Shown here one piece after another: positions 1,384-36,752 of a stretch of 64,000 bases of DNA. The notes under the pieces are model-generated. The model had not been told where the DNA came from. It ran no database searches and worked only from the letters and a program-made list of their open reading frames with translations. Source of the stretch: Sphaerotilus natans (GTDB taxonomy: Bacteria > Pseudomonadota > Gammaproteobacteria > Burkholderiales > Burkholderiaceae_C). Made by a program: the position numbers and the translations under genes. The stretch covers positions 124,001 to 188,000 of the forward strand of contig NZ_FTMZ01000002.1 in NCBI RefSeq assembly GCF_900156335.1, written 5' to 3'. Numbering within the stretch: position 1 is the stretch's first letter; each line of letters opens with the position of its first letter.

Positions 1384-1998
1384 ATGCACGCCAGAGCCCA
1401 TCCTGCCGCCGCCCGACTGACGCCGTCGGCCTCGGCCCCATGTCGGCGCCGGCCCCTCGAAAGCCCGAGCGCCCCCCCGTCACGGTTGCGGGGGAAAAAA
1501 GGCTGGCTGGCAGGGCTGCTGATCGGCATCGCCCTGCCCGCCCTTGCCCAGTTCGACACGGCGCTGCCCGCGCGCGCCCCCCGCCCTGCGCTGGCGACGA
1601 TGGCCACCACCGAGGCGGCCTATCGGATCGACGGCGCCCGCCACCTCTACCTGAACCATCCCGAGCGGATTCACGACGGCCTGCTGCCGCCCTTCCTGCA
1701 CGCGATCGCCGGCGTGCGCACCACGATCGACGCGCACGGGCGGGTCAGCCGCATCGAGATCACCCGCGAGCCCGCGGTTGCCCGCGAGGTGCTGCCGTGG
1801 ATCGAGCATCTGATCCGCGCCGCCGAGCCCTATCCGCGCCCGCCGGCCGGGCTGGACACGGTGCGCTGGGACGAGATCTGGCTGATCGACCGCAGCGGCC
1901 GCTTCCAGCTGCACACCCTGTCGGAGGGCCAGCAGCAGGCGCCGGACAGCGCGGATGACGAAGCGGATGAAGCGGACAGCCCACCGACCGGACGCTGA
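1384..1998 (+). CDS. Secreted hypothetical protein, possible TonB-C-like fold
   Basis: 204 residues if started at ATG 1384, but the first ~34 residues are low-complexity Pro/Arg/Ala. An in-frame TTG at 1486 would give a compact signal peptide (MRGKKGWLAGLLIGIALPAL then AQ), so the real start may be 1486. The mature region contains a stretch around residues 110-155 (dAHGRVSRIEITREPA ... WIEHLIRAAEPYPRPP) resembling the beta-strand/helix pattern of TonB C-terminal domains, which hints at a periplasmic protein. The C-terminus is acidic. It lies 28 bases after corA on the same strand. No specific function is assigned; the TonB-like resemblance is weak inference. Confidence 0.55.
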   Translation: MHARAHPAAARLTPSASAPCRRRPLESPSAPPSRLRGKKGWLAGLLIGIALPALAQFDTALPARAPRPALATMATTEAAYRIDGARHLYLNHPERIHDGLLPPFLHAIAGVRTTIDAHGRVSRIEITREPAVAREVLPWIEHLIRAAEPYPRPPAGLDTVRWDEIWLIDRSGRFQLHTLSEGQQQAPDSADDEADEADSPPTGR

Positions 1999-2004
1999 AA
2001 ATCG

Positions 2005-2796
2005 TCACAGCCCGGTCGTGCGCCGCAGCATCGCAAAGGCTGCGCGATCGCTGACCAGGCCGATCAGGCCGAGCAGCTTCATCACCCGGCTGAAGCGCTT
2101 GGGGAAATGGATCTCGAACTCGCCGCGCGCCCAGCCGCGCAGGATCTGGCGCGCCGCCTCCTCCGGCGAGATGAGCGCCGGCATCGGGTGGGTGTTGCCC
2201 GCGGTCAGTGGCGTGGCGACGAAACCCGGGCAGATCACCGACACGCCCAGCCCGCGCGGATGCAGGTCCTGCCACAGGCTCTGCGCCAGGCTGGTCAGCG
2301 CGGCCTTCGTGGGCCCGTAGGCCAGCGCCATCGGCAGGCCACGGTAGCCAGCCACGCTCGACACCAGGCTGACATGGCCCGTGCGCTGCACCAGCAGCAC
2401 TGGCAGCACCGCGTCGAGCAGCCGCCAGGCGCCGCCGACGTTGATGTCCTGATGGCGCAGCGCATCCTCCAGATCGATGCGGTCGGCGCGCATCGGCGCG
2501 TAGTGGCCGGCGCAGTACATCGCCAGATCGAGCCGGCCCAGGTGCGCCAGAACCCGCGGCATGGCATCCGCCAGCGCCCCCGGCGCGCAGGCATCGAGCG
2601 GCAGCGCCAGCGCATCGGCGTGGCGCGCGGCGAAGTCCTGCAGCGGCCCGGCCTTGCGCGCCGACACCACCACCCGCGCACCCGCCGCCGCCAGCGCCTC
2701 GGCGGTCGCCAGGCCGATGCCCGAGGACGCCCCGACGATCCAGACGCCCTGCCCGTGCCAGTCGCGCAGACACGGATTGAGGCCGGCGCTGCTCAT
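2005..2796 (-). CDS. Short-chain dehydrogenase/reductase (SDR)
   Basis: 263 residues, classical SDR size. Cofactor motif GASSGIG at residues 22-28; the active-site tetrad N119, S146/S147, Y160 and K164 (YGPTK) is complete, and the usual NNAG is CAG (95-97). Likely an NAD(P)H-dependent oxidoreductase acting on a lipid or hydrophobic alcohol/ketone; substrate unknown. It is the last gene of a seven-gene minus-strand operon; its ATG overlaps the stop of the DUF3833 gene as ATGA. SDRs of this type recur in gene clusters with DUF1365, a Cfa-like methyltransferase and an FAD oxidoreductase, so a role in fatty-acyl modification is inferred. Confidence 0.88.
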   Translation of the reverse strand: MSSAGLNPCLRDWHGQGVWIVGASSGIGLATAEALAAAGARVVVSARKAGPLQDFAARHADALALPLDACAPGALADAMPRVLAHLGRLDLAMYCAGHYAPMRADRIDLEDALRHQDINVGGAWRLLDAVLPVLLVQRTGHVSLVSSVAGYRGLPMALAYGPTKAALTSLAQSLWQDLHPRGLGVSVICPGFVATPLTAGNTHPMPALISPEEAARQILRGWARGEFEIHFPKRFSRVMKLLGLIGLVSDRAAFAMLRRTTGL

Positions 2797-3350
2797 GGCT
2801 TGTGGAAGGCCAGCGTGACCTCGCCCAGGCGGATGCCGAACTTGCTCATCGTCGCCTTGTTCAGCATCACCTTGCGCTCGGCGTCCATCAGGTACATCCA
2901 GTCGTCGAACTGCACGTTCCAGACGCGACCGTCGACCGGCAGCGCCAGCGTGTAGCGCCAGCGCAGCGCGTTGCCGGCGGCCTGGCCCTGCGCCTCGCCG
3001 ACCACGTCGTCGGCGCGGCCGGTGTAGCGGCCGCCGCCGTGGTCGGTCAGGCGCCAGACGCGGCGCTCGGTCTTGCCGTCGCTGTAGACGAAGTCTTCCT
3101 CCAGCACGCCTTCCGGGCCGTTCCAGCGCCCGACCAGCTTCACGGTGAAGCGGCGCACGACCTGGCCGGAGCGGTCAGTGAAGACGCCATGCGCGGTCAT
3201 CGGGCCGTCGAAATACTCGCGCAGCAGCAGGCGCGGCTGCTCGGCGGCGTACTGCTCGACCGCGGGCGAGGCGCAGCCAGCCAGCATCAGCAGCGCGCCG
3301 AGCAGACCGGCACCGGCCACGCGGCGCAGCGGGGGGGACAGGGATGTCAT
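2793..3350 (-). CDS. DUF3833 family lipoprotein
   Basis: 185 residues. The N-terminus MTSLSPPLRRVAGAGLLGAL leads into a lipobox LAGC, so the protein should be lipidated and exported. The body (EYFDGPMTAHGVFTDRSG ... VLEEDFVYSDGKTERRVWRL) matches the DUF3833 family, which is predicted to be a lipocalin-like beta structure. Start at 3350 is fixed by an ATGA overlap with the stop of the upstream MFS gene; its own stop overlaps the SDR start in the same way. Family members occur almost always in the Cfa/DUF1365/chalcone-isomerase neighbourhood, suggesting lipid binding in the periplasm. Biochemical function is unknown. Confidence 0.85.
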   Translation of the reverse strand: MTSLSPPLRRVAGAGLLGALLMLAGCASPAVEQYAAEQPRLLLREYFDGPMTAHGVFTDRSGQVVRRFTVKLVGRWNGPEGVLEEDFVYSDGKTERRVWRLTDHGGGRYTGRADDVVGEAQGQAAGNALRWRYTLALPVDGRVWNVQFDDWMYLMDAERKVMLNKATMSKFGIRLGEVTLAFHKP

Positions 3351-4624
3351 CGCGGATCTCCTTGCAGGGATGTCGGAGGCAGCGCGCCGGCCAGCCGCCA
3401 CAGCAGCGCCAGCGCCATCAGCTTGAAGACGCAGGGCAGCAATGCGTAGGTCAGACCGAGCATTTCCAGGCCCTGCGGATCGCGCGAGCCCGGCTGGTAG
3501 CCGGCCCACTGCAGCAGCGGCAGCGCCAGACCGGCGGCCAGCGCCAGATTGAGCTTCGAGGCGGCCGTCCACCAGCCGAAGAAGCGCCCCTCCGCCCGGC
3601 CGCCCAGGCCGCTGCGCCGCACCACCGCCGCCAGCAGCGCGCCCGGCAGCGCCAGATCCGCGCCGAGCGCCAGGCCGCTGGCCACGCAGACCAGCAGGAA
3701 GCCGCGCCCGTCGCCCTCGCCCAGCAGCACCGCGCCGCAGAAGGTCAGCACCGCCAGCACCATGCCGGCGCCCCAGGCACGCACCAGGCCAAGACGATCG
3801 ACCGCGCGCACCCACAGCGGCAGCGACAGCGCGCCGGCCAGGAAATAGCTCGCCAGGAAGGCGCCCTCCCACTGCGGCAGCTGCAGCCGGTCGCGGATGA
3901 AGAACAGCACCAGCGTCGCCGGCACCGCGCTGGCGATGCCGTTGAGCATGAACACCGCCAGCAGCCGCCGAAAGGCCGGCAGCTGCCACGGCCCGGGCGA
4001 GGCCGCCTCGGTGTCCGGCAGATCGGGCGCGGGCACCGGCCGATCCGCGCGGGCCAGCGCCAGCACGCCCAGCGCCAGCGTCACGATGAAGACCGTCAGG
4101 CTCGCCGACAGCCCGGCCAGCGAGGGCAGCACGCTGGCCAGCACCACGCCGACCAGCGCCGCGCCCTCGCGCCAGGCCACCCGGCGCGCCTGGATCGCAT
4201 CGTCGCCGCCCAGGCGTGCGCCCCAGGCCTGGTGCAGCACGCTGGCCACGCTCCAGGCCAGGCAGGTCGCCAGCAGCAGCGCCGCGCACCAGGCCAGCAG
4301 CGCCGGCAGCTCGCCGCCCAGCGCCGGCAGCGGAAAGAACAGCCCGGTCAGCCCGAGCATCAGCACCGCCGCCGCCAGCGCCAGCCAGCGCAGCGTGCGC
4401 GAGAACGGGCCCGACAGCAGCCGATCCACCCGCTGGCCGATCCACGGATCGAGCAGCGCGTCGAGCGAGCGCACCGCCAGCAGCACGCCGCCCAGCGCCG
4501 CCAGCGGCACGCCGAACTGCTCAGCGTAATGGTTGGGCAGCACCACGTAGAGCGGCAGCGCGACGAAGGCCAGCGGCAGCCCGAGCGCGCCATAGCGCAG
4601 GCCGGCGCCGATCGCGGCGCTCAT
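3347..4624 (-). CDS. MFS transporter, GPH/MFS_2-like
   Basis: 425 residues with about twelve hydrophobic segments. The N-terminal portion (LGLPLAFVALPLYVVLPNHY) resembles the GPH (glycoside-pentoside-hexuronide:cation symporter, MFS_2) branch. I start it at ATG 4624, which overlaps the stop of the upstream chalcone-isomerase-like gene as ATGA, rather than at a longer in-frame extension that runs over that gene. Sister proteins in equivalent clusters are always found beside Cfa-like methyltransferases, so a lipid or lysolipid substrate is more likely than a sugar; that is inference. Inner membrane. Confidence 0.85.
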   Translation of the reverse strand: MSAAIGAGLRYGALGLPLAFVALPLYVVLPNHYAEQFGVPLAALGGVLLAVRSLDALLDPWIGQRVDRLLSGPFSRTLRWLALAAAVLMLGLTGLFFPLPALGGELPALLAWCAALLLATCLAWSVASVLHQAWGARLGGDDAIQARRVAWREGAALVGVVLASVLPSLAGLSASLTVFIVTLALGVLALARADRPVPAPDLPDTEAASPGPWQLPAFRRLLAVFMLNGIASAVPATLVLFFIRDRLQLPQWEGAFLASYFLAGALSLPLWVRAVDRLGLVRAWGAGMVLAVLTFCGAVLLGEGDGRGFLLVCVASGLALGADLALPGALLAAVVRRSGLGGRAEGRFFGWWTAASKLNLALAAGLALPLLQWAGYQPGSRDPQGLEMLGLTYALLPCVFKLMALALLWRLAGALPPTSLQGDPR

Positions 4625-5181
4625 CCGCCCGTGCCCAGCAGCGCGGCGCGCAGCTGCGGCTCGGGCCCGCGCGGCGACAGCCAGATGCCGAAGAAGAGCC
4701 GTGCGAACTCGATCTCGGCCACCTCGCCGGTGGGGCGGCCCTGATGCAGGAAGCGCGCCCCCCGGCCCGCCCGGTTCACGCCCACCAGGCGCTCGCCGGA
4801 CTGCACGTCGGGAAACGCGGCGCGCATCGCCGCGCGCCAGGCCTCGGCGCGCGCCTCGTCGAAGCGGTCGAGGCGGCGCATCTCCTCGATCGAGCGGTCG
4901 GCGATGCCCTCGCCCGACAGGCGCCGGGCGTAGATCAGCTCGAGCGCGAAGTCGCGGCCGGCGTAGTCCTCGGCGCTCAGCGGCGCGGCCGCACCCGGTC
5001 GCCACAGCCGGGCGTCATAGATCGACAGCCCGAGCCAGCGAAAGCGCATCGTGCCCTGCAGGCGTGGCTCGGGCAGCGCGGCGCGCACCTCCGCCGGCGG
5101 CTCGGCAGCCCGAGCGACCGGCGCCAGCAGCCCCAGCGCCACCGCCGGCGCGACCCGCAGCCAGCTTCGGCGCGTCGTCAT
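4621..5181 (-). CDS. Chalcone-isomerase-like periplasmic protein
   Basis: 186 residues with a signal peptide (MTTRRSWLRVAPAVALGLLA, cleavage near VARA-AE). The mature part (RFRWLGLSIYDARLWRP ... LELIYARRLSGEGIADRS ... FARLFFGIWLSPR) carries the pattern of the bacterial chalcone isomerase-like fold (Chalcone_2). Bacterial members do not take part in flavonoid synthesis; the fold is shared with fatty-acid-binding proteins, so lipid binding in the periplasm is plausible. ATGA overlaps join it to cfa upstream and to the MFS gene downstream, implying coupled expression. Confidence 0.85.
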   Translation of the reverse strand: MTTRRSWLRVAPAVALGLLAPVARAAEPPAEVRAALPEPRLQGTMRFRWLGLSIYDARLWRPGAAAPLSAEDYAGRDFALELIYARRLSGEGIADRSIEEMRRLDRFDEARAEAWRAAMRAAFPDVQSGERLVGVNRAGRGARFLHQGRPTGEVAEIEFARLFFGIWLSPRGPEPQLRAALLGTGG

Positions 5182-6446
5182 GGCCGCCTCAGCGTGTACT
5201 GCACGACATTCGTGTTGCCGGTGTCGAAGGCCGCCTCGCAGTAGGCGAGATAGAAGTCCCAGGTGCGCATGAACGGCAGATCGAAGCCCAGCGGGCGGAT
5301 CTGCTCGGCCTGCGCATGGAAATCCGTGCGCCAGCGCCGCAGCGTCTCGGCGTAGTCCGGCCCGAAGGCCAGCGTGCGCTCCACCTCCAGCCCGGCGCGT
5401 CCGGCGGCCAGGCGGAACTCGCGGTCGCTGGGCAGCAGGCCACCGGGAAAGATGTACTGCTGGATGAAATCGGTCGAGCGCACATAGCGATCGAACAGGT
5501 CATCACGAATGGTGATGGTCTGGATGCAGGCGCGCCCGCCCGGCTTCAGGCAGCGCGCCACCGTCTCGAAGTAGGACGGCCAGTAGGCACGGCCGACCGC
5601 CTCGAACATCTCGATCGACACCAGCGCGTCGAAGGGCGCGTCGGCGATGTCGCGGTAGTCCTGCAGCCGCAGCTCGGCCTGGCCGCCCAGGCTCTGGCGC
5701 GCCAGACGCTCCTGGGCCCAGGCGAGCTGCTCGGTCGACAGCGTCACGCCGGTCAGGTGCGCGCCGCGCCGCGCCGCCGCCTCGGCCACCGCGCCCCAGC
5801 CGCAGCCGATCTCCAGCACCCGGCCGCCCGGCTGCACACCGGCCTCGACCAGCGCGCGGGCCACCTTGGCGTCCTGCGCCTCGGTCAGCGCGCGGCCGTG
5901 ATCGCCGTCGAACCAGGCGCTCGAGTAGTTCATCGTCGGGTCGAGCCACAGCCGGTAGAACGCGTTGCCGAGGTCGTAGTGCGCGTGGATGTTGCGCCGG
6001 CTGCCCTCGCGGCTGTTGCGGTTGCGCCAGTGCTGCAGCCGGTGCAGCAGCGAGCCCCACCAGCCGCCGAAGATCAGCCGCTCGATCGCCTCGCGGTTGA
6101 GCAGCAGCAGGCGCAGCAGCGCCGGCAGGTCGTCGGTGTCCCAGTCGCCGGCGATGAAGGCCTCGGCGAAGCCGATGTCGCCGGACTTCAGCGCCGCGGC
6201 GAACACCTTCTGGTCGTGCACCACCAGCGTGGCGCGCGGCTCCAGGCCCGAGCCCAGGCGCAGGTGCGAGCCGTCCGGCCAGCGCAGGTCGAGCGTGCCG
6301 TGCTCGATGCGCTTGAGCAGGCCCAGCACGGTGCGGGTGGCGGCGCTGGCGCCCCGGGGCAGCAGCATCTCGGTCGGGGTCGACGCGGACACGGACGGGC
6401 GCAGTGACAGGCCGGGCAGCGCGGCGGAACGGACGGGCTGGTTCAT
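5178..6446 (-). CDS. cfa: Cyclopropane-fatty-acyl-phospholipid synthase family methyltransferase
   Basis: 422 residues. SAM-binding motif I LEIGCGWG at about 211-218; family motifs HYDLGNAFY (156-164) and MNYSSAWF (172-179) precede it, and the C-terminus MRTWDFYLAYCEAAF is typical of CFA/MycA enzymes. These proteins transfer a methyl or methylene group from S-adenosylmethionine to the double bond of a membrane phospholipid acyl chain. Given the neighbours (FAD oxidoreductase, DUF1365, SDR), this copy may make methylated or otherwise modified unsaturated acyl chains instead of simple cyclopropane lipids, as Cfa-like UfaM does in furan fatty acid synthesis. Start at 6446 is 22 bases after the DUF1365 stop. 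Enzyme class is certain, exact product inferred. Confidence 0.92.
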   Translation of the reverse strand: MNQPVRSAALPGLSLRPSVSASTPTEMLLPRGASAATRTVLGLLKRIEHGTLDLRWPDGSHLRLGSGLEPRATLVVHDQKVFAAALKSGDIGFAEAFIAGDWDTDDLPALLRLLLLNREAIERLIFGGWWGSLLHRLQHWRNRNSREGSRRNIHAHYDLGNAFYRLWLDPTMNYSSAWFDGDHGRALTEAQDAKVARALVEAGVQPGGRVLEIGCGWGAVAEAAARRGAHLTGVTLSTEQLAWAQERLARQSLGGQAELRLQDYRDIADAPFDALVSIEMFEAVGRAYWPSYFETVARCLKPGGRACIQTITIRDDLFDRYVRSTDFIQQYIFPGGLLPSDREFRLAAGRAGLEVERTLAFGPDYAETLRRWRTDFHAQAEQIRPLGFDLPFMRTWDFYLAYCEAAFDTGNTNVVQYTLRRP

Positions 6447-6468
6447 CGTGGATCTCGCTCGGTCAGGC

Positions 6469-7221
6469 TCATCGGCTCACCAGCGCCGCAGGCGGCACCG
6501 GCTTGTGGAAGAAGGGAACGCGGCGCCACCACAGCTGCAGCGCCTGCCAGTGAATGCGCGCCATCACGCCCAGCGTCAGCAGCGGGTGGGCGGTCCAGGC
6601 ACGGTGCAGGGCTTCGGCCGTCAGCGGCTCCAGGTGGCCGCTGACGCTGGTGCTGATCAGCTCGCGGCCGTCGGCGTCGTCATGGTCGATGCGCACCACG
6701 GTGCGCTCGGGGGTGCGCAGGAAGCGGAAGCGGTAGCGGCCCTCGACACGACAGAAGGGCGAGACGTGGAAGACCTTGTCGGCGCGCAGCTCGCGGCCCC
6801 AGGCCGGGCGGTCGAGCAGGTAGCAGTGGCGCTCGCCGAAGGTGTTGTTGACCTCGGCGACGATGGCGCGCAGCGCGCCGTCAGCGCGGTGCGCGTACCA
6901 AAAGCTCACCGGCTTGAAGGCGTAGCCCAGCACGCGCGGGTAGGTGTGCAGCCAGATCTCGCCGTCGGCGTCCGTGATGCCCTCGGCCGCCAGCAGACGC
7001 TCGAACCAGGCCAGCGCATCGTCGCCGCCGTCGCCATGATCGCAGTCATGAAAGCTGACCCGCGCAGCGCGGTTGCGCGCCAACACCGGATCGGGCTGCT
7101 GGCGCAGCGTGCGCATCGGCAGCAGCAGGAACCAGGTGTCGTAGCGAAAGGCGCGGGCCACCGGCCGGCGCCGCGCATGGCGCACCGGGCCTCGGCCGAT
7201 CAGCGCACGCGGCGGGTTCAT
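6469..7221 (-). CDS. DUF1365 family protein
   Basis: 250 residues. It opens IGRGPVRHARRRPVARAFRY and contains YAFKPVSFWYAHR and NNTFGERHCYLL, the hallmark segments of DUF1365, a family found next to Cfa-like enzymes and FAD oxidoreductases across proteobacteria and actinobacteria. No catalytic residues are established. Its ATG overlaps the stop of the upstream flavoprotein gene as ATGA. Co-occurrence suggests it is needed with the flavoprotein and the methyltransferase to modify fatty acyl chains; it may bind the lipid or help the flavoprotein. Function otherwise unknown. Confidence 0.9.
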   Translation of the reverse strand: MNPPRALIGRGPVRHARRRPVARAFRYDTWFLLLPMRTLRQQPDPVLARNRAARVSFHDCDHGDGGDDALAWFERLLAAEGITDADGEIWLHTYPRVLGYAFKPVSFWYAHRADGALRAIVAEVNNTFGERHCYLLDRPAWGRELRADKVFHVSPFCRVEGRYRFRFLRTPERTVVRIDHDDADGRELISTSVSGHLEPLTAEALHRAWTAHPLLTLGVMARIHWQALQLWWRRVPFFHKPVPPAALVSR

Positions 7222-8564
7222 GCCGCCTCCGCTGCCGAAACGGGCCGGACCAGCTTCAGATGCGGACCGGCATCGGCCACACGCTCGCGCAGCGCCGCGA
7301 CCACCGCCAGGCCCGACTTCAGCCCGTCCTCATGGAAGCCGTAGCCGGTCCAGGCCCCGCAGAACCAGGTGTGGCGCCGACCCTGGATCGCGGGCAGCCG
7401 GCGCTGCGCCTCGATCGCCGCCAGGTCGAAGACCGGGTGGCTGTAGTCGTACTCGCCCAGGATGTGCTCGCGCCGGATCTGGCGCACCGGATTGAGCGAG
7501 ACGATCACCGGCTGCGTCCACGGCATCGGCTGCAGGCGGTTGAGCAGATAGTGCAGGCACACGCCCGAGCGCTCGCGGCCCGCGTCGCCGGCGTGCTCGT
7601 AGTTCCAGGCGGCCCAGGCCTTGCGGCGCTGCGGCAACTGGTTCTCGTCGGTGTGCAGCACCGCGCGGTTCGGGTGGTAGCGGATCGCGCCCAGCACCGC
7701 TCGCTCGTCCGCGCTGGCATCCATGCCCAGCAGGCGCAACGCCTGGTCGGAATGGCAGGCCAGCACCACCTCGTCGTAGCGCGCCTCGCCGTCGGCGGCG
7801 CTGACGATCACGCCGCCCTCGGGCAGGCGGCGCAGCGAACGCACCGGCGTCGAGAGCCGCACATCGGGCAGCCGCGCGGCGATCTTCTCGACATAGTGGC
7901 GCGCACCGCCGCGCACCGTGTGCCACTGCGGCCGGTCGCTGACCTGCAGCAGCCCGTGGTTGTGGCAGAAGCGGATCATCGTCGCGATCGGGAACTGCAG
8001 CATCTGCTCGGTCGGGCAGGACCAGATGCAGCCGATCATCGGCAGGAAGTACCAGCGCCGGAAGGTGTCGGAGAAACGCTCGGCATCGAGGAACTCGCCG
8101 ATCGACTGCGCCAGCTGCGCCTCGCTGCCCGTGCGCGCCAGCTCGGTGGTGCGGCGGTTGAAGCGCAGCAGCTCGCGCAGCATGCCCAGGAAGCGCGGGC
8201 TGAACAGGTTGGCGCGCTGCGCGAACACCGTGTCGAGGTTGCAGCCGCTCCACTCCAGCCGCCCCTGCTCGGCCTGGACCGAGAAGGACATGTCCGAGGG
8301 CGCCGTGTCGACGCGCAGCTCGGCGAAGAGCTTGAGCAGCTCCGGGTAGGTGCGGTGGTTGAAGACCAGGAAGCCGGTGTCGACGCCCTGCGTGTGCGCC
8401 CGCCCGTCCGGGCCGGGCAGCGTCACGTCGACGGTGTGGGTGTGGCCGCCGAGGTAGTAGCCCGCCTCGTAGAGCGTGACCCTGCAGTCCGAGCCCGGCG
8501 CCGACAGATGCCAGGCGCTCGACAGGCCGGCGATGCCTGAGCCGATGATCGCGATGCGTCGCAT
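7218..8564 (-). CDS. FAD-dependent amine-oxidase-fold oxidoreductase
   Basis: 448 residues. N-terminal dinucleotide motif IIGSGIAGLSSAWHL (GxGxxG at about 8-13), followed by YEAGYYLGGHTHT, which is the NAD/FAD-binding Rossmann of the phytoene-desaturase/amine-oxidase superfamily. The C-terminus WFCGAWTGYGFHEDGLKSGL is the FAD-contacting ATG-like segment common to the cluster-specific subfamily. Likely a desaturase or oxidase acting on a methylated acyl chain produced by the neighbouring Cfa-like enzyme (inference from the equivalent UfaD-type step). First gene of the tightly coupled operon; the ATG at 8564 is preceded by a 341-base gap. Confidence 0.9.
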   Translation of the reverse strand: MRRIAIIGSGIAGLSSAWHLSAPGSDCRVTLYEAGYYLGGHTHTVDVTLPGPDGRAHTQGVDTGFLVFNHRTYPELLKLFAELRVDTAPSDMSFSVQAEQGRLEWSGCNLDTVFAQRANLFSPRFLGMLRELLRFNRRTTELARTGSEAQLAQSIGEFLDAERFSDTFRRWYFLPMIGCIWSCPTEQMLQFPIATMIRFCHNHGLLQVSDRPQWHTVRGGARHYVEKIAARLPDVRLSTPVRSLRRLPEGGVIVSAADGEARYDEVVLACHSDQALRLLGMDASADERAVLGAIRYHPNRAVLHTDENQLPQRRKAWAAWNYEHAGDAGRERSGVCLHYLLNRLQPMPWTQPVIVSLNPVRQIRREHILGEYDYSHPVFDLAAIEAQRRLPAIQGRRHTWFCGAWTGYGFHEDGLKSGLAVVAALRERVADAGPHLKLVRPVSAAEAA

Positions 8565-8905
8565 GGCTCAGGCCCTCCCGGCGGTGCGAGGGGTGGACAG
8601 AAGAGACGCCGTGCAGCGCCCGAAGGGGAAGAAGGGAGGGAGGGAGGAGGAGAGGATCCGCCTCCGGGGGGCTGCCGGAACGCGGGGTCCGGACAGGCTG
8701 CACGGCGTGAAAATCGTTGCCCGATCGGCAGGAGCGGCGAATTCGGTGTCCATGAGGACCGGATACGCAGGCCGAAGCCGATCGGATGCACTGGCTGTGA
8801 GCCGACCTGCGTGCGGAAGTTCCCGGACGGCAGCCGCCGCGAGGGTCGAGATGTGAGCAGACATGTCCGGGCTCCGGTGGGGAGAAGATGCGGGGAGGAC
8901 GCCGC
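8565..8905. other. Gap between gpx and the FAD oxidoreductase, with a G-quadruplex motif
   Basis: 341 bases with no secure gene. A run of four G-tracts on the plus strand at 8625-8644 (GGGG-N5-GGG-A-GGG-A-GGG) fits the G-quadruplex consensus and lies in the likely leader or template strand of the minus-strand lipid operon. A 98-codon frame on the minus strand (8568-8864) has GGAG near its ATG and would end three bases before the flavoprotein start, but its second half is low-complexity Ser/Pro/Arg and I do not call it. No palindrome like those upstream of gpx was found here. Confidence 0.45.
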
Positions 8906-9493
8906 TCAGCGGCGGGCCAGCTCGGCGCGGATGTCGCGCAGCAGCGCGCCGTCCTCCGGCGTGGTGAAGCTGGTGTAGGCCTTGACGGTGCGTCCGTCGC
9001 GCCCGATCAGGTACTTGTGGAAGTTCCACTTCGGCGTGCTGCCCGACAGCCTGGCCAGATCGGCATAGAAGGGATGGGCCTTCGCGCCGGTGACCGGCGT
9101 CTTCATGAACATCGGGAAGCGCACCGCGAACTGGTCCTCGCAGAAGGCGGCGATCTCCGCGTTCGAGCCCGGCTCCTGGCCGGCGAAGTCGTTCGACGGA
9201 AAGCCCAGCACCACCAGGCCATCGCCCTGGTGCTTGCGGTAGAGCGCCTCCAGCCCTCGGTACTGCGAGGTGAAGCCGCACTGGCTCGCGGTGTTGACCA
9301 CCAGCACCACGCGACCGGCGTACTGGCACAGCGACTGCGGCTTCTCGTCCTGCAGCCGCGGCACCGTGCGGTCGAGCAAGGCGGGACAGGCCGCAGCGCC
9401 GGAGGGCGTGGCCGCGGCAGGCGTGGCGGCCTGCGCCGGAGCCATGCCGATGAACAGTGCGCACAGCGCCGCAAGAAGAGTTGCCTTGAACAT
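8906..9493 (-). CDS. Exported glutathione/thioredoxin peroxidase
   Basis: 195 residues with a signal peptide (MFKATLLAALCALFIGMAPA, cleavage near AQA). Catalytic Cys72 lies in NTASQCGFTSQY; Q106 in GFPSNDFAGQEPG and W156 N157 in KWNFHKYLI complete the GPX active site. Cys type, so it probably uses thioredoxin or a periplasmic thiol to reduce hydroperoxides, including lipid peroxides. Divergent from the CarH/LitR-type regulator with two palindromes between them, and upstream of the lipid-modification operon on the same strand, which suggests it belongs to the same light/singlet-oxygen response. The ATG at 9493 gives a clean signal peptide. Confidence 0.9.
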   Translation of the reverse strand: MFKATLLAALCALFIGMAPAQAATPAAATPSGAAACPALLDRTVPRLQDEKPQSLCQYAGRVVLVVNTASQCGFTSQYRGLEALYRKHQGDGLVVLGFPSNDFAGQEPGSNAEIAAFCEDQFAVRFPMFMKTPVTGAKAHPFYADLARLSGSTPKWNFHKYLIGRDGRTVKAYTSFTTPEDGALLRDIRAELARR

Positions 9494-9496
9494 GAT

Positions 9497-9509
9497 TTGT
9501 CTTGGGCAA
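9497..9509. promoter_or_regulatory. Near-palindromic operator candidate, proximal to gpx
   Basis: TTGTC-TTG-GGCAA, a 13-base near-perfect copy of the TTGTC-N3-GACAA palindrome. It lies 3 bases from the gpx start codon. With flanks it is complementary in 14 of 16 positions to the second copy at 9557-9572 (TGTTTG.CCA.GACAA), so the two form a large inverted repeat. Presumed binding site of the neighbouring MerR-type regulator (inference). Confidence 0.6.
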
Positions 9510-9559
9510 ACAGTGGATGTGGTTCTAATATTAGGCATGACAGACAAAAACCACAATGT

Positions 9560-9572
9560 TTGTCCAGGACAA
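9560..9572. promoter_or_regulatory. Palindromic operator candidate, proximal to the CarH/LitR gene
   Basis: TTGTC-CAG-GACAA, a perfect 5+3+5 palindrome located 73 bases upstream of the regulator ATG at 9645. The spacing from the first copy is 63 bases, six helical turns, compatible with cooperative binding of two dimers or one tetramer on the same face. CarH-type proteins bind DNA as dark-state tetramers; whether this is its site is inferred from position and symmetry. Confidence 0.65.
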
Positions 9573-9644
9573 TTTATCGACGAAAACGCGACATCGCAGA
9601 CCGGGCTCACGGCCGGCGATGTGCGGCACACTCGGAGCCCCCTG

Positions 9645-10616
9645 ATGAATGACCGGGCACCCACCGCACTGACCATGTTCACGATCGCCGCCGTCGAACG
9701 CGACACCCGCCTCGGCAAGGACACGCTGCGCGTCTGGGAGCGCCGCTACGGCTTCCCCCGTCCGCTGCGCGACGACAATGGCGAGCGCCTCTACCCGCAC
9801 GAGCAGGTCGAGCAGCTGCGCCACATCCGCCGCCTGCTCGATGCGGGCTGGCGCCCGGGACGCATCGTCGGCCTGCCGCTGGAGGAGCTGCAGCGGGTGG
9901 GCCAGCTCTCGGGCGGCGAGACCGCCGCAGCGGCCGAGCCGGCCCTGAAGGCTGAGCCGAAGGCGCTGTACGAGCTGCTGCGCGCGCATGACGTGGCCGG
10001 CCTGCGCCGCGCGCTGATGCAGACGCTTCTGCGCCGCGGCCTGGCGCACTTCATCGGCGAGGTCGCGCAGCCGCTGCTGGTCGAGATCGGCGAGGCCTGG
10101 TCGCGCGGCCAGCTCGAGGTCTTCGAGGAACACCTGTGCAGCGAGGCGATCGAGACGGTGCTGCGCACCGCGATCGCCACCGCGCCGGAAATGCGCGCCG
10201 ACGGCACGCCGCGGGTGCTGCTGACCACCTTCCCCGGAGAACTGCACGGCCTGGGCCTGCTGATGGCCGAGGCGCTGTTCACCCTCGAGGGCGCGAGCTG
10301 CATGAACCTGGGCTGCCAGACGCCGATGCCCGACATCGTCGCCGCCGCGCGCGCGCATCGCGCCGACATCGTCGCGCTCGGCTTCTCGATGGTCAGCCCG
10401 GCCGGTGCCTCGCTCGACCATCTGGCCGAGCTGCGCGCCCGGCTGCCGCAGCCGGTCGAGCTGTGGGCCGGCACGCCGCAGGCGGCGATGCAGCGGCGCG
10501 GCGTCGAAGGCGTCCTGATGCTGCCGACGCTGGGCGAGATCCATCAGGGCATCGGTCGCTGGCACGCGCGGGCCGGAACGACCCGGCAGAGCGACGATCG
10601 TCATTCAAACGATTGA
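9645..10616 (+). CDS. litR: MerR-family adenosylcobalamin photoreceptor regulator (CarH/LitR type)
   Basis: 323 residues. N-terminal MerR winged helix with FTIAAVERDTRLGKDTLRVWERRYGF (about 12-37), then a helical bundle and a B12-binding Rossmann domain. The photoreceptor signature is intact: W152 and E162-H163 form the Wx9EH motif, and E199-x-H201-x-x-G204 (GELHGLG) supplies the cobalamin lower ligand His201. Such proteins bind AdoCbl in the dark, repress as tetramers, and fall apart on illumination. The ATG at 9645 has GGAG 8 bases upstream; an earlier ATG at 9537 would translate through the operator and is less likely. It should control itself, gpx and perhaps the lipid operon. The domain call is strong; targets are inferred. 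Confidence 0.92.
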   Translation: MNDRAPTALTMFTIAAVERDTRLGKDTLRVWERRYGFPRPLRDDNGERLYPHEQVEQLRHIRRLLDAGWRPGRIVGLPLEELQRVGQLSGGETAAAAEPALKAEPKALYELLRAHDVAGLRRALMQTLLRRGLAHFIGEVAQPLLVEIGEAWSRGQLEVFEEHLCSEAIETVLRTAIATAPEMRADGTPRVLLTTFPGELHGLGLLMAEALFTLEGASCMNLGCQTPMPDIVAAARAHRADIVALGFSMVSPAGASLDHLAELRARLPQPVELWAGTPQAAMQRRGVEGVLMLPTLGEIHQGIGRWHARAGTTRQSDDRHSND

Positions 10617-10698
10617 TACGCATGCATCAAGACCCGTGAATCTGCCTGAACGGAGGGCCCTCTAAGCTGTGCACCAGCTGACAAGAGATCCCTCCGCC

Positions 10699-11265
10699 AT
10701 GAGCACACCCTCTTCCTCCTCGCGCTACGGCGCCACCGCGATCGCGCTGCACTGGCTGCTGGCGCTGGGCATCGTCGGAGCCTTCGGCGTCGGGGTCTAC
10801 ATGACCGGCCTGCCCTTCTCGCCGACGCGGCTCAAGCTCTACAACTGGCACAAGTGGGCCGGCGTGACGATCCTGGCGCTGTCGGCCGCCCGGCTGCTGT
10901 GGCGCCTGGCGAACCGCCCGCCGGCGCTGCCGGCCTCGATCGACAAGGCCATGCCGGGCTGGCAGCGCAGCGCCTTCCACGGCACGCACCACCTGATGTA
11001 TGTGCTGTTCTTCGCCGTGCCGCTGACCGGCTGGGCCTACAGCTCGGCAGCAGGCTTCCCGATCGTCTGGTTCGGCGTGCTGCCGCTGCCGGACTTCATG
11101 CCGGTCGACAAGGCGCTGGCCGAATCGATCAAGCCGCTGCACGAACTGAGCGCCTTCGGCCTGGCCGGCCTGGTGGTGCTGCATGTGGCCGCCGCGCTCA
11201 AGCACCAGCTCATCGACCGCGACCGCCTGCTCGGCCGCATGGGCCTGGGTCCGGCGCCGCGCTGA
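10699..11265 (+). CDS. Cytochrome b561 family protein
   Basis: 188 residues from ATG 10699; an in-frame GTG at 10669 would add ten residues. Four hydrophobic helices with conserved histidines H18 (ALHWLL), H51 (YNWHKW), H97/H98 (GTHHLMY), H148 and H162 (LHVAAALKH), giving the two haem b sites of the bacterial b561/CybB family. These inner-membrane proteins move electrons from quinol to periplasmic acceptors or superoxide. Two YceI genes follow at 54 and 56 bases, a common arrangement that suggests a joint role with periplasmic isoprenoid-binding proteins. Confidence 0.9.
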   Translation: MSTPSSSSRYGATAIALHWLLALGIVGAFGVGVYMTGLPFSPTRLKLYNWHKWAGVTILALSAARLLWRLANRPPALPASIDKAMPGWQRSAFHGTHHLMYVLFFAVPLTGWAYSSAAGFPIVWFGVLPLPDFMPVDKALAESIKPLHELSAFGLAGLVVLHVAAALKHQLIDRDRLLGRMGLGPAPR

Positions 11266-11319
11266 GACGCGCTGATCGCCCAGCAGCCACCCGCTCATCC
11301 TGATTTCCGGAGTTCTTCC

Positions 11320-11901
11320 ATGACCGTCATCCTGCGCACCGCGGCCTTGGCCGCCGCCTCCTTCGCCGCCCTGGTCGTCGCGCCGACGCCCGCCCTGGCC
11401 CAGCAGAAGCTCGACGCTGCCAAGAGCGAGATGCTCTTCGTCAGCAAGCAGATGGGCGTGCCGGTCGAAGGGCGCTTCCGCAAGTTCGACGCGCAGATCG
11501 CCTTCGACCCGAAGAAGCCGGAAGCCGGCAAGGTCGCCTTCACCATCGACATGGGCAGCGCCACCTTCGGCTCGCCGGAGGTGGATGTCGAGCTGCCCAA
11601 GGCCACCTGGTTCAACGTGCCGAAGTTCCCGCAGGCCACCTTCCAGTCCAGCGCGATCAAGGCCGTCGGCGCCGGCAAGTTCGAGGTGGCCGGCAAGCTG
11701 TCCATCAAGGGCAGCAGCCGCGACGTGGTCGTGCCGGTCGCGCTGACCCAGGCCGGCGGCAGCACCACCGCCACCGGCGCCTTCGCGATCAAGCGCCTCG
11801 AATTCAAGATCGGCGAAGGCGACTGGGCCGACACCTCGATGGTCGCCAACGACGTGCAGGTGAAGTTCAAGCTGAACCTGAGCGGCGTGCCGGCGCTCTG
11901 A
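11320..11901 (+). CDS. yceI: YceI family periplasmic protein, copy 1
   Basis: 193 residues with signal peptide ending PALA-QQ (about residue 27). YceI proteins form a lipocalin-like barrel that binds polyisoprenoids such as ubiquinone-8. The family pattern LFVSKQMGVPVEGRFRKFDA ... VAFTIDMGSATF ... KLSIKGSSRDVVVPV is clear. GGAG precedes the ATG at good spacing. It lies between cytochrome b561 and a second YceI gene; the two YceI copies share only the fold and short motifs, so they are old paralogues, not a recent duplication. Confidence 0.9.
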   Translation: MTVILRTAALAAASFAALVVAPTPALAQQKLDAAKSEMLFVSKQMGVPVEGRFRKFDAQIAFDPKKPEAGKVAFTIDMGSATFGSPEVDVELPKATWFNVPKFPQATFQSSAIKAVGAGKFEVAGKLSIKGSSRDVVVPVALTQAGGSTTATGAFAIKRLEFKIGEGDWADTSMVANDVQVKFKLNLSGVPAL

Positions 11902-11957
11902 ACCGCATTCCCTCTTTTCTCTCACCCAACCCTGACCCCCTTGACGGAGACCCTGCC

Positions 11958-12533
11958 ATGAAGAAGACCCTGCTCGCCCTGACCGCCGCCTCGGCCCTGT
12001 TCGCCACCGCTGCCCAGGCCCAGTCGGCCACCTACGCGATCGAGCCGACGCACACCTTCGTGACCTTCGAGATCGACCACTTCGGCACCTCGACCAACCG
12101 CGGCCGCTTCGACAAGAAGGAAGGCACCGTCCAGTTCGATCGCGCCGGCAAGACCGGCAAGGTCGACATCACCATCGACGTCGACTCGGTCAACACCGGC
12201 ACCGGCCCGTTCAACAGCCACCTGAAGAGCGCCGAGATCCTGAACGTCGCGGCCTACCCGACCGCCCGCTTTGTCGGCGACAAGTTCGTGTTCGAGGGCG
12301 ACAAGGTCAAGGAAGTGACCGGCCAGTTCACGCTGATGGGCAAGACCCACCCGGTCACGCTGAAGGCGACCAAGTTCAACTGCTACCAGAACCCGATGCT
12401 CAAGCGCGAGGTCTGCGGCGGCGACTTCGAGACCACCATCAAGCGCAGCCAGTGGGGCGCCAGCTACGGCCTGAACTACGGCTTCGCCGACGACATGCGC
12501 CTGGTGATCCAGGTCGAGGCGGTCAAGCAGTAA
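11958..12533 (+). CDS. yceI: YceI family periplasmic protein, copy 2
   Basis: 191 residues. Signal peptide ends AAQA-QS (about 22). The core motifs YAIEPTHTFVTFEIDHFGTS, GTVQFDRAGKTGKVDITID and SRWG-like KRSQWGASYGLNYGFADD are closer to the canonical E. coli-type YceI than copy 1. Two cysteines (NCYQNPMLKREVCGGDF) could form a disulfide. GGAGA ribosome binding site upstream. Probably an isoprenoid or ubiquinone-binding periplasmic protein cooperating with the b561 encoded first in the operon. Confidence 0.92.
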   Translation: MKKTLLALTAASALFATAAQAQSATYAIEPTHTFVTFEIDHFGTSTNRGRFDKKEGTVQFDRAGKTGKVDITIDVDSVNTGTGPFNSHLKSAEILNVAAYPTARFVGDKFVFEGDKVKEVTGQFTLMGKTHPVTLKATKFNCYQNPMLKREVCGGDFETTIKRSQWGASYGLNYGFADDMRLVIQVEAVKQ

Positions 12534-36320: not shown

Positions 36321-36752
36321 ATGCCCCCCGCCCGCTTCGATGACCGCCAGGTGCGCTGGATGCCCTTCGGCGACATGCCGCACTTCCTGTTCTCGATCCT
36401 GCACATCGACGAGCCGCGCGGCATCGCCGACGTGCTGTTCCGCTTCTCGGCCGGGCAGCAGATCGTGCTGCACCGCCACCTCGCGGCCAACCACACCTTC
36501 GTGATCCAGGGCGAACACCGGCTGTACGAGGCCGACGGCGCGCTGCGCGAGATCCGCCCGGCCGGCACGCTGACCGTCTCGCCCGCCAGCGAGGTGCCGC
36601 ACCGCGAGGGCGGCGGCCCGGACCAGGACGCGATCGTGCTGTTCAGCATGCGCCCGGAGCCCGGCCAGAAGCTCTACGAGATCCTGGCCGACGACGGCAC
36701 GGTGATCGCCGACATCACGCTCGACACGCTGCGCGCCATTCGCGCTGCCTAG
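36321..36752 (+). CDS. Cupin-domain protein
   Basis: 143 residues. A single cupin barrel with metal-binding histidines in IVLHRHLAANHTFVIQGEHR and VPHREGGG. Metal-dependent enzymes or sensors of this family include ChrR-like anti-sigma relatives and small dioxygenases; no further specification is possible. AAGAGGAGA ribosome binding site 9 bases upstream. It is 23 bases before the flavoprotein gene, so they are probably co-transcribed. Confidence 0.82.
   Translation: MPPARFDDRQVRWMPFGDMPHFLFSILHIDEPRGIADVLFRFSAGQQIVLHRHLAANHTFVIQGEHRLYEADGALREIRPAGTLTVSPASEVPHREGGGPDQDAIVLFSMRPEPGQKLYEILADDGTVIADITLDTLRAIRAA

Follow-up and report, generated by a model that had tools for sequence, protein, structure and literature searches.

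A predicted light-inducible furan fatty acid operon beside a class I LitR-type regulator in Sphaerotilus natans

Background

Furan fatty acids are membrane lipids thought to protect against damage, and the monomethyl form is able to scavenge singlet oxygen. Here we describe a predicted furan fatty acid operon and the LitR/CarH-type regulator beside it, which lie together in a 64,000-nucleotide stretch of the Sphaerotilus natans genome (this whole stretch is called the window, its positions serve as coordinates, and the genome that holds it is called the own genome). The published pathway of Rhodobacter sphaeroides starts with methylation of phospholipid-bound cis-vaccenate by UfaM; a double bond is then introduced by UfaD (RSP1091), and insertion of an O2-derived oxygen atom by UfaO (RSP1090, a DUF1365 protein) completes a monomethyl furan fatty acid (PMC7380195). 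According to the same source, an R. sphaeroides triple mutant needs no more than the Rhodopseudomonas palustris homologs of UfaM, UfaD and UfaO to make the furan lipid, and the R. sphaeroides operon has three additional genes (402, 186 and 245 residues) that are dispensable for it.

At least five classes of LitR protein are distinguished, of which class I comprises the adenosylcobalamin (AdoCbl) photosensors, and UfaM clusters under the light control of a LitR-family regulator are already known from Pseudomonas (PMC9758184). The published light signature of vitamin B12 photoreceptors consists of the elements GxxW, EH, GxxH and GxxxP (PMC11796333). In the CarH protein of Thermus thermophilus (TtCarH), His132, which follows the Trp, is described as binding cobalt in the light state, giving bis-His ligation.

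We propose that the window probably holds a light-inducible furan fatty acid operon under a class I (AdoCbl) LitR. The proposal is built on gene content, synteny, B12-photosensor motifs, and a conserved palindrome that co-occurs with LitR; the three enzyme steps and the CarH-like photochemistry would be those that the literature describes for homologs. AdoCbl binding, release by light, the binding of LitR to the palindrome, the product in this organism and the roles of the accessory proteins are what we infer from these observations.

Results and discussion

The operon and its regulator

The operon comprises seven minus-strand genes running from 8564 to 2005, with ATGA overlaps at five of the six junctions (read directly); at the sixth, the DUF1365 and methyltransferase genes are 22 base pairs (bp) apart. 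The first three genes encode a UfaD-like flavin amine-oxidase-type protein, assigned to the desaturase step (7218 to 8564, minus strand; Pfam Amino_oxidase, best PDB match the amine oxidase LkcE), a UfaO-like DUF1365 protein of 250 residues (6469 to 7221, minus strand; Pfam PF07103, E 1.6e-78), and a UfaM-like S-adenosylmethionine methyltransferase of CMAS type (5178 to 6446, minus strand; Pfam CMAS, PDB relatives and a residue alignment). One protein each of the UfaD, UfaO and UfaM types is encoded together, as judged by Pfam, synteny and the PDB relatives of the methyltransferase and the flavoprotein, and by family and gene set the three match the published enzymes in type. Upstream of the operon, separated from the ufaD-like gene by 341 bp, lies a gene for a glutathione-peroxidase-like protein (gpx; 8906 to 9493, minus strand; Pfam GSHPx), which has a signal-like N-terminus when read by eye and is the first gene after a promoter-like element; the regulator gene (9645 to 10616, plus strand) is divergent from gpx.

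The regulator (Pfam MerR_1, B12-binding_2 and B12-binding) is of class I by its motifs. It consists of a helix-turn-helix domain whose recognition helix carries RxWERRY (LRVWERRYGF in the translation), a four-helix B12-binding_2 domain with Wx9EH (W152, E162, H163), and a Rossmann B12-binding domain with ExHxxG (from E199); all four elements of the light signature are present (GEAW, EH, GELH, GCQTP). Its best PDB matches are 3whp and 5c8d, from T. thermophilus CarH (E about 8e-30), and with 127.5 bits against a cut-off of 400 in the NCBIfam CarH model it is a relative of CarH, not a CarH equivalog. Among 81 LitR homologs (the window protein and 80 others), 79 retain the Trp, Glu and His of Wx9EH together with the cobalt His, the exceptions being L099 and L100, which have lost them. 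The window regulator is 97% identical to that of Sphaerotilus sulfidivorans D-501 and 86% to its counterpart in Leptothrix sp. C29. The own genome encodes a corrinoid adenosyltransferase of BtuR/CobO type; it has no match to Photo_RC, the photosynthetic reaction centre family, and phototrophy was rejected as the reason for the light link.

The original prediction had named a seven-gene minus-strand operon with five ATGA junctions, a peroxidase beside it, and a regulator with intact Wx9EH and ExHxxG cobalamin-photoreceptor motifs, and the coordinates, Pfam content, junctions and motif residues agree with it on each count. Its suggestion of a light-controlled lipid response under an AdoCbl-type LitR is supported by inference from synteny, the candidate operator and the conservation of the motifs.

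Synteny and distribution

LitR (threshold E ≤1e-20) was found in 114 of the 250 host-family genomes surveyed, and DUF1365 in 196; both occur in 104, LitR alone in 10, DUF1365 alone in 92, and neither in 44. Of the 113 other genomes with LitR, 80 were sampled for neighbourhoods of up to 20 kb around the gene, chosen mostly by going down the list from its top, and 33 were left out. We regard the linkage of LitR with ufa genes as more than chance, because homologs of UfaD (above 200 bits) and UfaM occur together in 65 of these 80 neighbourhoods; each singly occurs in 66. Homologs of the other operon proteins are found in similar numbers: UfaO in 62, the short-chain dehydrogenase/reductase (SDR) in 61, the DUF3833 protein in 58, the chalcone-isomerase-like protein in 57 and the major facilitator superfamily (MFS) transporter in 56. 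In 37 neighbourhoods LitR has a glutathione peroxidase homolog no more than about 10 kb away, in two of them on its far side. In a subset of ten loci, eight share the order from ufaD-ufaO-ufaM through the SDR gene (four of these eight with gpx) and the other two stop at a contig end, and all ten have a palindrome with at most one mismatch upstream of LitR.

Linkage is also seen at a greater distance. In a phylum sample of 349 genomes, LitR occurs in nine, four of them outside the host family; of these four, L204 and L205 have ufaD-ufaO-ufaM next to LitR, L207 has it at a distance of about 4 kb, and L206 lacks it. In L205, LitR is the last gene of the ufaD-ufaO-ufaM operon itself, and a palindrome with one mismatch stands before ufaD. 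A different layout occurs in L073, L080 and L090, where LitR and CorA are separated by about 1.5 kb that holds no ufa genes. The arrangement looks like loss or relocation of the operon with retention of the regulator; DUF1365 is found elsewhere in two of these three genomes.

A candidate operator

The palindrome TTTGTC-N3-GACAAA recurs upstream of LitR and is our candidate for the LitR operator. Over 80 upstream regions (79 loci and the window; L110 was excluded for a contig end), 54 have a best site with at most one mismatch and 68 have one with at most two, as against 1 and 17 of 1600 dinucleotide-preserving shuffles. The four columns flanking the palindrome on each side are mildly AT-rich and show much lower conservation (best base 0.29 to 0.43), a contrast that speaks against common ancestry by itself as the source of the palindrome. 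Sites are often paired: 27 of 41 pairs are 62 to 65 bp apart, the other distances up to 75 bp (21, 31, 53, 74 and 75 bp; eight pairs) are near whole helical turns, and six pairs are more than 130 bp apart.

Two such sites, neither assigned a strand, lie between gpx and the regulator gene in the window, 63 bp apart and each with one mismatch. Predicted operator 1 (TTTGTCTTGGGCAAA, 9496 to 9510) is situated between a -10-like element and the gpx start codon (9493), and predicted operator 2 (TTTGTCCAGGACAAT, 9559 to 9573) just upstream of a -35-like hexamer in the direction of gpx and ufa. The promoter-like element that they flank (9528 to 9556, minus strand) consists of TTGTGG (9556-9551), 17 bp, and TAATAT (9533-9528), and is weak by strict consensus; TAATAT-like strings are found between paired operators at several other loci. 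For CarH-like 11-bp direct repeats a simple three-copy measure shows little signal (3.43 vs 3.0 in shuffled sequence), and the value at 12 bp is raised as well (3.80 vs 3.17).

Palindromes elsewhere and a possible wider regulon

Exact palindromes number 72 copies in 54 of the 250 family genomes (the control pattern occurs in two genomes), and they are found in 53 of the 114 LitR genomes compared with 1 of the 136 others (Fisher p 6e-21, kinship uncorrected). Thirty-five of the 72 copies are more than 500 bp from the LitR hit, in 26 of 114 LitR genomes compared with 1 of 136 others (p 4e-9, kinship likewise uncorrected); two of these distal sites may be local, one in G038 at 1.2 kb from LitR and one in G089 before ufaD on a contig other than LitR's. 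The surroundings of 34 of these 35 sites yielded 58 candidate genes whose starts lie no more than 300 bp from a site; 40 of the genes were scanned, and Pfam matched 29. Among them are Rrf2-type regulators (10 by Pfam and two by BLAST cluster), five chemoreceptors, a photolyase, a photolyase-related protein, a lipocalin, a glutathione peroxidase and a desulfoferrodoxin-like protein, and further a sigma-70-type factor, TerC proteins, a transglutaminase-like protein, a GGDEF-EAL protein, a histidine kinase, and pyruvate kinase, which is less suited to light stress.

Exact palindromes precede Rrf2/IscR-type genes in L166, L168, L170, L174, L180, L182, L183, L184, L187, L189, L196 and L198, all in LitR-bearing genomes; these could be LitR targets, or some could be operators of the Rrf2 proteins themselves with a similar sequence. 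In five genomes (L167, L169, L179, L185, L191) an exact palindrome stands directly before a chemoreceptor gene, hinting at light-set chemotaxis. The own genome contains TTTGTCYWRGACAAA with at most two mismatches five times, two of them at the window locus, and the reversed control pattern once. The only other site with one mismatch to the searched pattern, G000:C39:43847 (L199:4048), has perfect arms (TTTGTC-GTG-GACAAA) and lies directly before a gene for a CheY-like response regulator, a possible second predicted LitR target in this genome. The two-mismatch sites C29:188552 and C33:2213 have no clear target among the long frames near them, which were considered without a family search.

Taken across the family, these patterns raise a broader idea, which we advance tentatively and at a little less than even confidence: that the LitR proteins form a distinct clade sensing light through AdoCbl without bis-His ligation, and acting at palindromes whole turns apart (mostly 63 bp, possibly with a small DNA loop) on a photo-oxidative regulon rather than on carotenoids. 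The regulon would, as part of the same joint proposal, consist of furan fatty acid synthesis, glutathione peroxidase, photolyases, Rrf2-type regulators and chemoreceptors.

Enzymes and likely product

The methyltransferase had earlier been described as Cfa-type, and the operon's product as not obvious. The first description stands as far as the CMAS family domain goes; the protein is not a typical cyclopropane synthase. The bicarbonate ligands of the Escherichia coli enzyme are Glu239, His266 and Tyr317 (PMC11387697). In E. coli numbering, Glu239 and Tyr317 are kept in 67 of 67 homologs of the window methyltransferase and His266 is replaced by Gln in 66 of 67; the window protein itself has Gln for His266, Ala for His240 and Ser for Cys139. 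Its scores in the NCBIfam cyclopropane-synthase models, 247, 237 and 203 bits, compare with cut-offs of 600, 400 and 650. Cyclopropane synthesis, a first guess for the product, was rejected on the lost bicarbonate His and these scores, and loss of that His may be a mark of UfaM. The own genome has two more CMAS matches, which span only about 110 of 273 profile positions. E. coli itself carries a cfa gene. One published result speaks against the rejection: Halomonas ufaM expressed in E. coli yielded cyclic fatty acids as well as the 11-methyl product (PMC12089945). As to the product of the operon, the earlier view is not supported, in that a protein of each of the three published furan fatty acid enzyme types (PMC7380195) is encoded in the operon.

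In the UfaD-like protein the glycines of the flavin adenine dinucleotide (FAD) motif are kept in 67 of 67 homologs. The UfaO-like protein is modelled as a strand-rich fold (predicted local distance difference test, pLDDT, 95.5), and His14, His61, His131 and His151 are invariant in 44 aligned sequences. A sequence search of the PDB found no solved relative for it (best E 0.4), and in a Foldseek search of the model the best matches were nitrobindins (E about 2e-3, template modelling scores 0.30/0.43, root-mean-square deviation 8), none reaching E ≤0.001; the resemblance is too weak to name a cofactor, a haem-binding barrel being a lead.

Accessory and neighbouring genes

Four genes follow the methyltransferase gene, all on the minus strand. 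The first (4621 to 5181; Pfam PF16036, Chalcone_3) encodes a chalcone-isomerase-like protein of 186 residues with a signal-like N-terminus read by eye; its model (pLDDT 92.5) matches the fold of chalcone isomerases, with a Foldseek E of 2.0e-7 to 4doo, the Arabidopsis fatty-acid-binding protein AtFAP1, a resemblance that fits the handling of acyl chains and does not show it. It is followed by an MFS_2-type (GPH-like) transporter of 425 residues (3347 to 4624; Pfam PF13347, with the NCBIfam GPH model matched below its cut-off), and by a DUF3833 protein (2793 to 3350; Pfam PF12915), joined to the MFS gene by ATGA and lipoprotein-like by a LAGC stretch read by eye, which is 192 or 185 residues long, an alternative upstream start at 3371 being possible. 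The last gene, again at an ATGA junction, encodes an SDR of 263 residues (2005 to 2796; Pfam PF00106).

On the far side of LitR (10669-12533, plus strand), in the Sphaerotilus/Leptothrix group, are a cytochrome b561-like gene and two more genes, which we take to be YceI-like. Elsewhere in the window, 36321-36752 is a 143-codon frame for a short Cupin_7 protein, probably not a ChrR anti-sigma factor; Cupin_7 is presumably the family that also holds ChrR. Among the operon genes Pfam shows no ChrR anti-sigma factor with Cupin_7, sigma-E not having been searched for.

A proposed mechanism

In the dark, LitR with AdoCbl would sit on the two palindromes, which are 63 bp (six helical turns) apart and bracket the promoter before gpx-ufaDOM-chi-mfs-duf3833-sdr, and would repress the gpx-ufa operon and probably its own gene too. 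Light would break the Co-C bond, alter the LitR assembly and release the DNA, so that the operon is transcribed. UfaM would then methylate phospholipid-bound cis-vaccenate, UfaD would add a second double bond, and UfaO would insert an oxygen atom derived from O2 to yield the monomethyl furan fatty acid. The chalcone-isomerase-like, MFS and DUF3833 proteins may form an accessory module, perhaps for handling acyl chains in the envelope.

Weighing the proposal and its alternatives

Several points weigh against a light-inducible furan fatty acid operon under LitR. Light control, B12 dependence and the lipid product are all read from the genes, and the Ufa assignment rests on family and gene set. 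The dispensability of the three additional R. sphaeroides operon genes for the furan lipid (PMC7380195) also counts on this side. The tie between LitR and DUF1365 is loose across the family, as the genomes with only one of the two show (92 and 10 of 250); the UfaD-UfaM pair is lacking in 15 of the 80 LitR neighbourhoods, and 12 of the 80 upstream regions are without a site of at most two mismatches. The surveyed genomes are related and hence not independent samples, so the co-occurrence p-values overstate the association. A strict sigma-70 promoter scan of 1700-10700 finds no promoter. A second operator in the 341-bp gap between gpx and ufaD was considered and rejected, as the gap holds no palindrome with at most four mismatches, and control of the operon therefore requires read-through from the gpx promoter. 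Outside the family, the two sites between LitR and ufaD in L204 are 122 bp apart, which is not a whole number of helical turns, and L207 has no palindrome near LitR or ufaD.

A further adverse point concerns the light switch itself. Aligned to EAWHRG of TtCarH, the window regulator has Ser153 in place of His132, and none of the 81 homologs has His at that position (Met in 40, Ala in 17, Leu in 8, Val in 7, Ser in 5, others in 4). Many myxobacterial CarH proteins do have a His of this type (PMC9304148), and the TtCarH variant H132A stays mostly tetrameric in the light, an earlier report of disassembly being noted in the same source (PMC10442372). These observations would suit a LitR that has given up light switching and, with no bis-His state of the TtCarH kind, now senses AdoCbl (as B12 status) or redox. 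We consider this unlikely. The window protein retains the elements GxxW, EH, GxxH and GxxxP, and the ufa and gpx targets, with some photolyases, are in keeping with a response to light stress; moreover, CtMerR, with Arg at the place of His132, is still a light-responsive B12 protein, the position being variable among light-responsive proteins (PMC11796333). With His132 absent in 81 of 81 homologs and CtMerR responding to light with Arg there, photosensing by the window LitR is plausible, but it would have to follow CtMerR and not bis-His ligation.

It is similarly improbable that the lipid is some other methyl-branched or oxidised acyl chain, to which the SDR, MFS, DUF3833 and chalcone-isomerase-like genes divert the pathway. 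The frequency with which these accessory genes travel with the trio (56 to 61 of the 80 neighbourhoods) and the lack of a solved UfaO relative found by sequence (best E 0.4) would accord with such a product; on the other side, the R. sphaeroides triple mutant requires no more than the R. palustris UfaM, UfaD and UfaO homologs for the furan lipid, and R. sphaeroides too has an operon with three extra genes, which the lipid does not need (PMC7380195).

The weakest alternative holds that LitR controls only itself and gpx, the ufa genes having their own promoter in the 341-bp gap and answering to singlet oxygen as through ChrR in R. sphaeroides. The length of the gap (279-534 bp in 24 of 36 relatives) and the 92 of 250 genomes with DUF1365 but without LitR speak for this alternative, yet we judge it the least probable of the three, since the gap has no palindrome, in loci without gpx (for example L053, L068 and L072) the palindrome region lies between adjoining LitR and ufaD genes, ufaD in L205 and L197 is directly preceded by a palindrome, and the Cupin_7 matches in the own genome are in frames of 151 and 147 codons, too short for full ChrR.

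If the light-inducible operon proposed here is real, a B12 light sensor would be joined to a pathway for membrane lipids about whose trigger little is known, and the conditions under which a large bacterial family makes furan fatty acids could readily be predicted. The family would also offer a natural set of CarH-like proteins without His132 for asking how light switches the sensor, and the palindrome a direct means of mapping the regulon.

Comparison with known systems

The operon shares its three enzyme types, by family, with the Ufa pathway of R. sphaeroides and R. palustris, UfaO being a DUF1365 protein of 250 residues in both (PMC7380195). The additional genes were compared by length only: 402, 186 and 245 residues in R. 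sphaeroides, and 425 (MFS), 186 (chalcone-isomerase-like), 192 or 185 (DUF3833) and 263 (SDR) in the window. Loss of chrR raises the furan lipid in R. sphaeroides (PMC7380195), whereas the window operon adjoins an AdoCbl-type LitR instead; and ufaM is far from ufaD and ufaO there (PMC12089945), while in the window all three are in one operon. With the cyclopropane synthases of E. coli and Pseudomonas aeruginosa, the methyltransferase has in common the catalytic domain family, Glu239 and Tyr317, with Gln for His266 in nearly all homologs (66 of 67). In the blue-light response of Vibrio cholerae the Cfa-like gene VC1122 is induced, and a MerR-like regulator and also ChrR are involved (PMC5241685); the MerR-like gene shares an operon with a photolyase gene, unlike that of the window.

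As for the regulator, domain order and the motifs Wx9EH, ExHxxG and RxWERRY are common to the window protein and the class I CarH/LitR proteins of T. thermophilus, Bacillus megaterium and myxobacteria. Class I proteins have been linked mainly to carotenoid production (PMC9758184), whereas the neighbour here is a lipid operon; the operators of T. thermophilus and B. megaterium CarH are tandem 11-bp direct repeats (PMC9304148), whereas the window candidate is a palindrome; and TtCarH has His132, which the window LitR lacks. Among the matches listed in the literature searches, no paper shows a B12-type LitR with ufa genes or the operator TTTGTC-N3-GACAAA.

A close parallel is the class II LitR system of Pseudomonas putida and P. 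mendocina, in which a light-induced cluster places a LitR-family repressor beside UfaM, an FAD oxidoreductase and an SDR (PMC9758184), as the window does by gene content. The class II proteins need no B12, with PmlR2 switched by a short LOV protein, whereas the window regulator has the full B12 motifs; their operator is T(G/A)TACA-N12-TGTA(C/T)A (PMC9758184), against the window candidate TTTGTC-N3-GACAAA, which is often doubled at 63 bp. What sets the present locus apart, as far as its sequence indicates, is the combination of a B12-type regulator, a palindromic and phased candidate operator, and the absence of His132 throughout 81 homologs.

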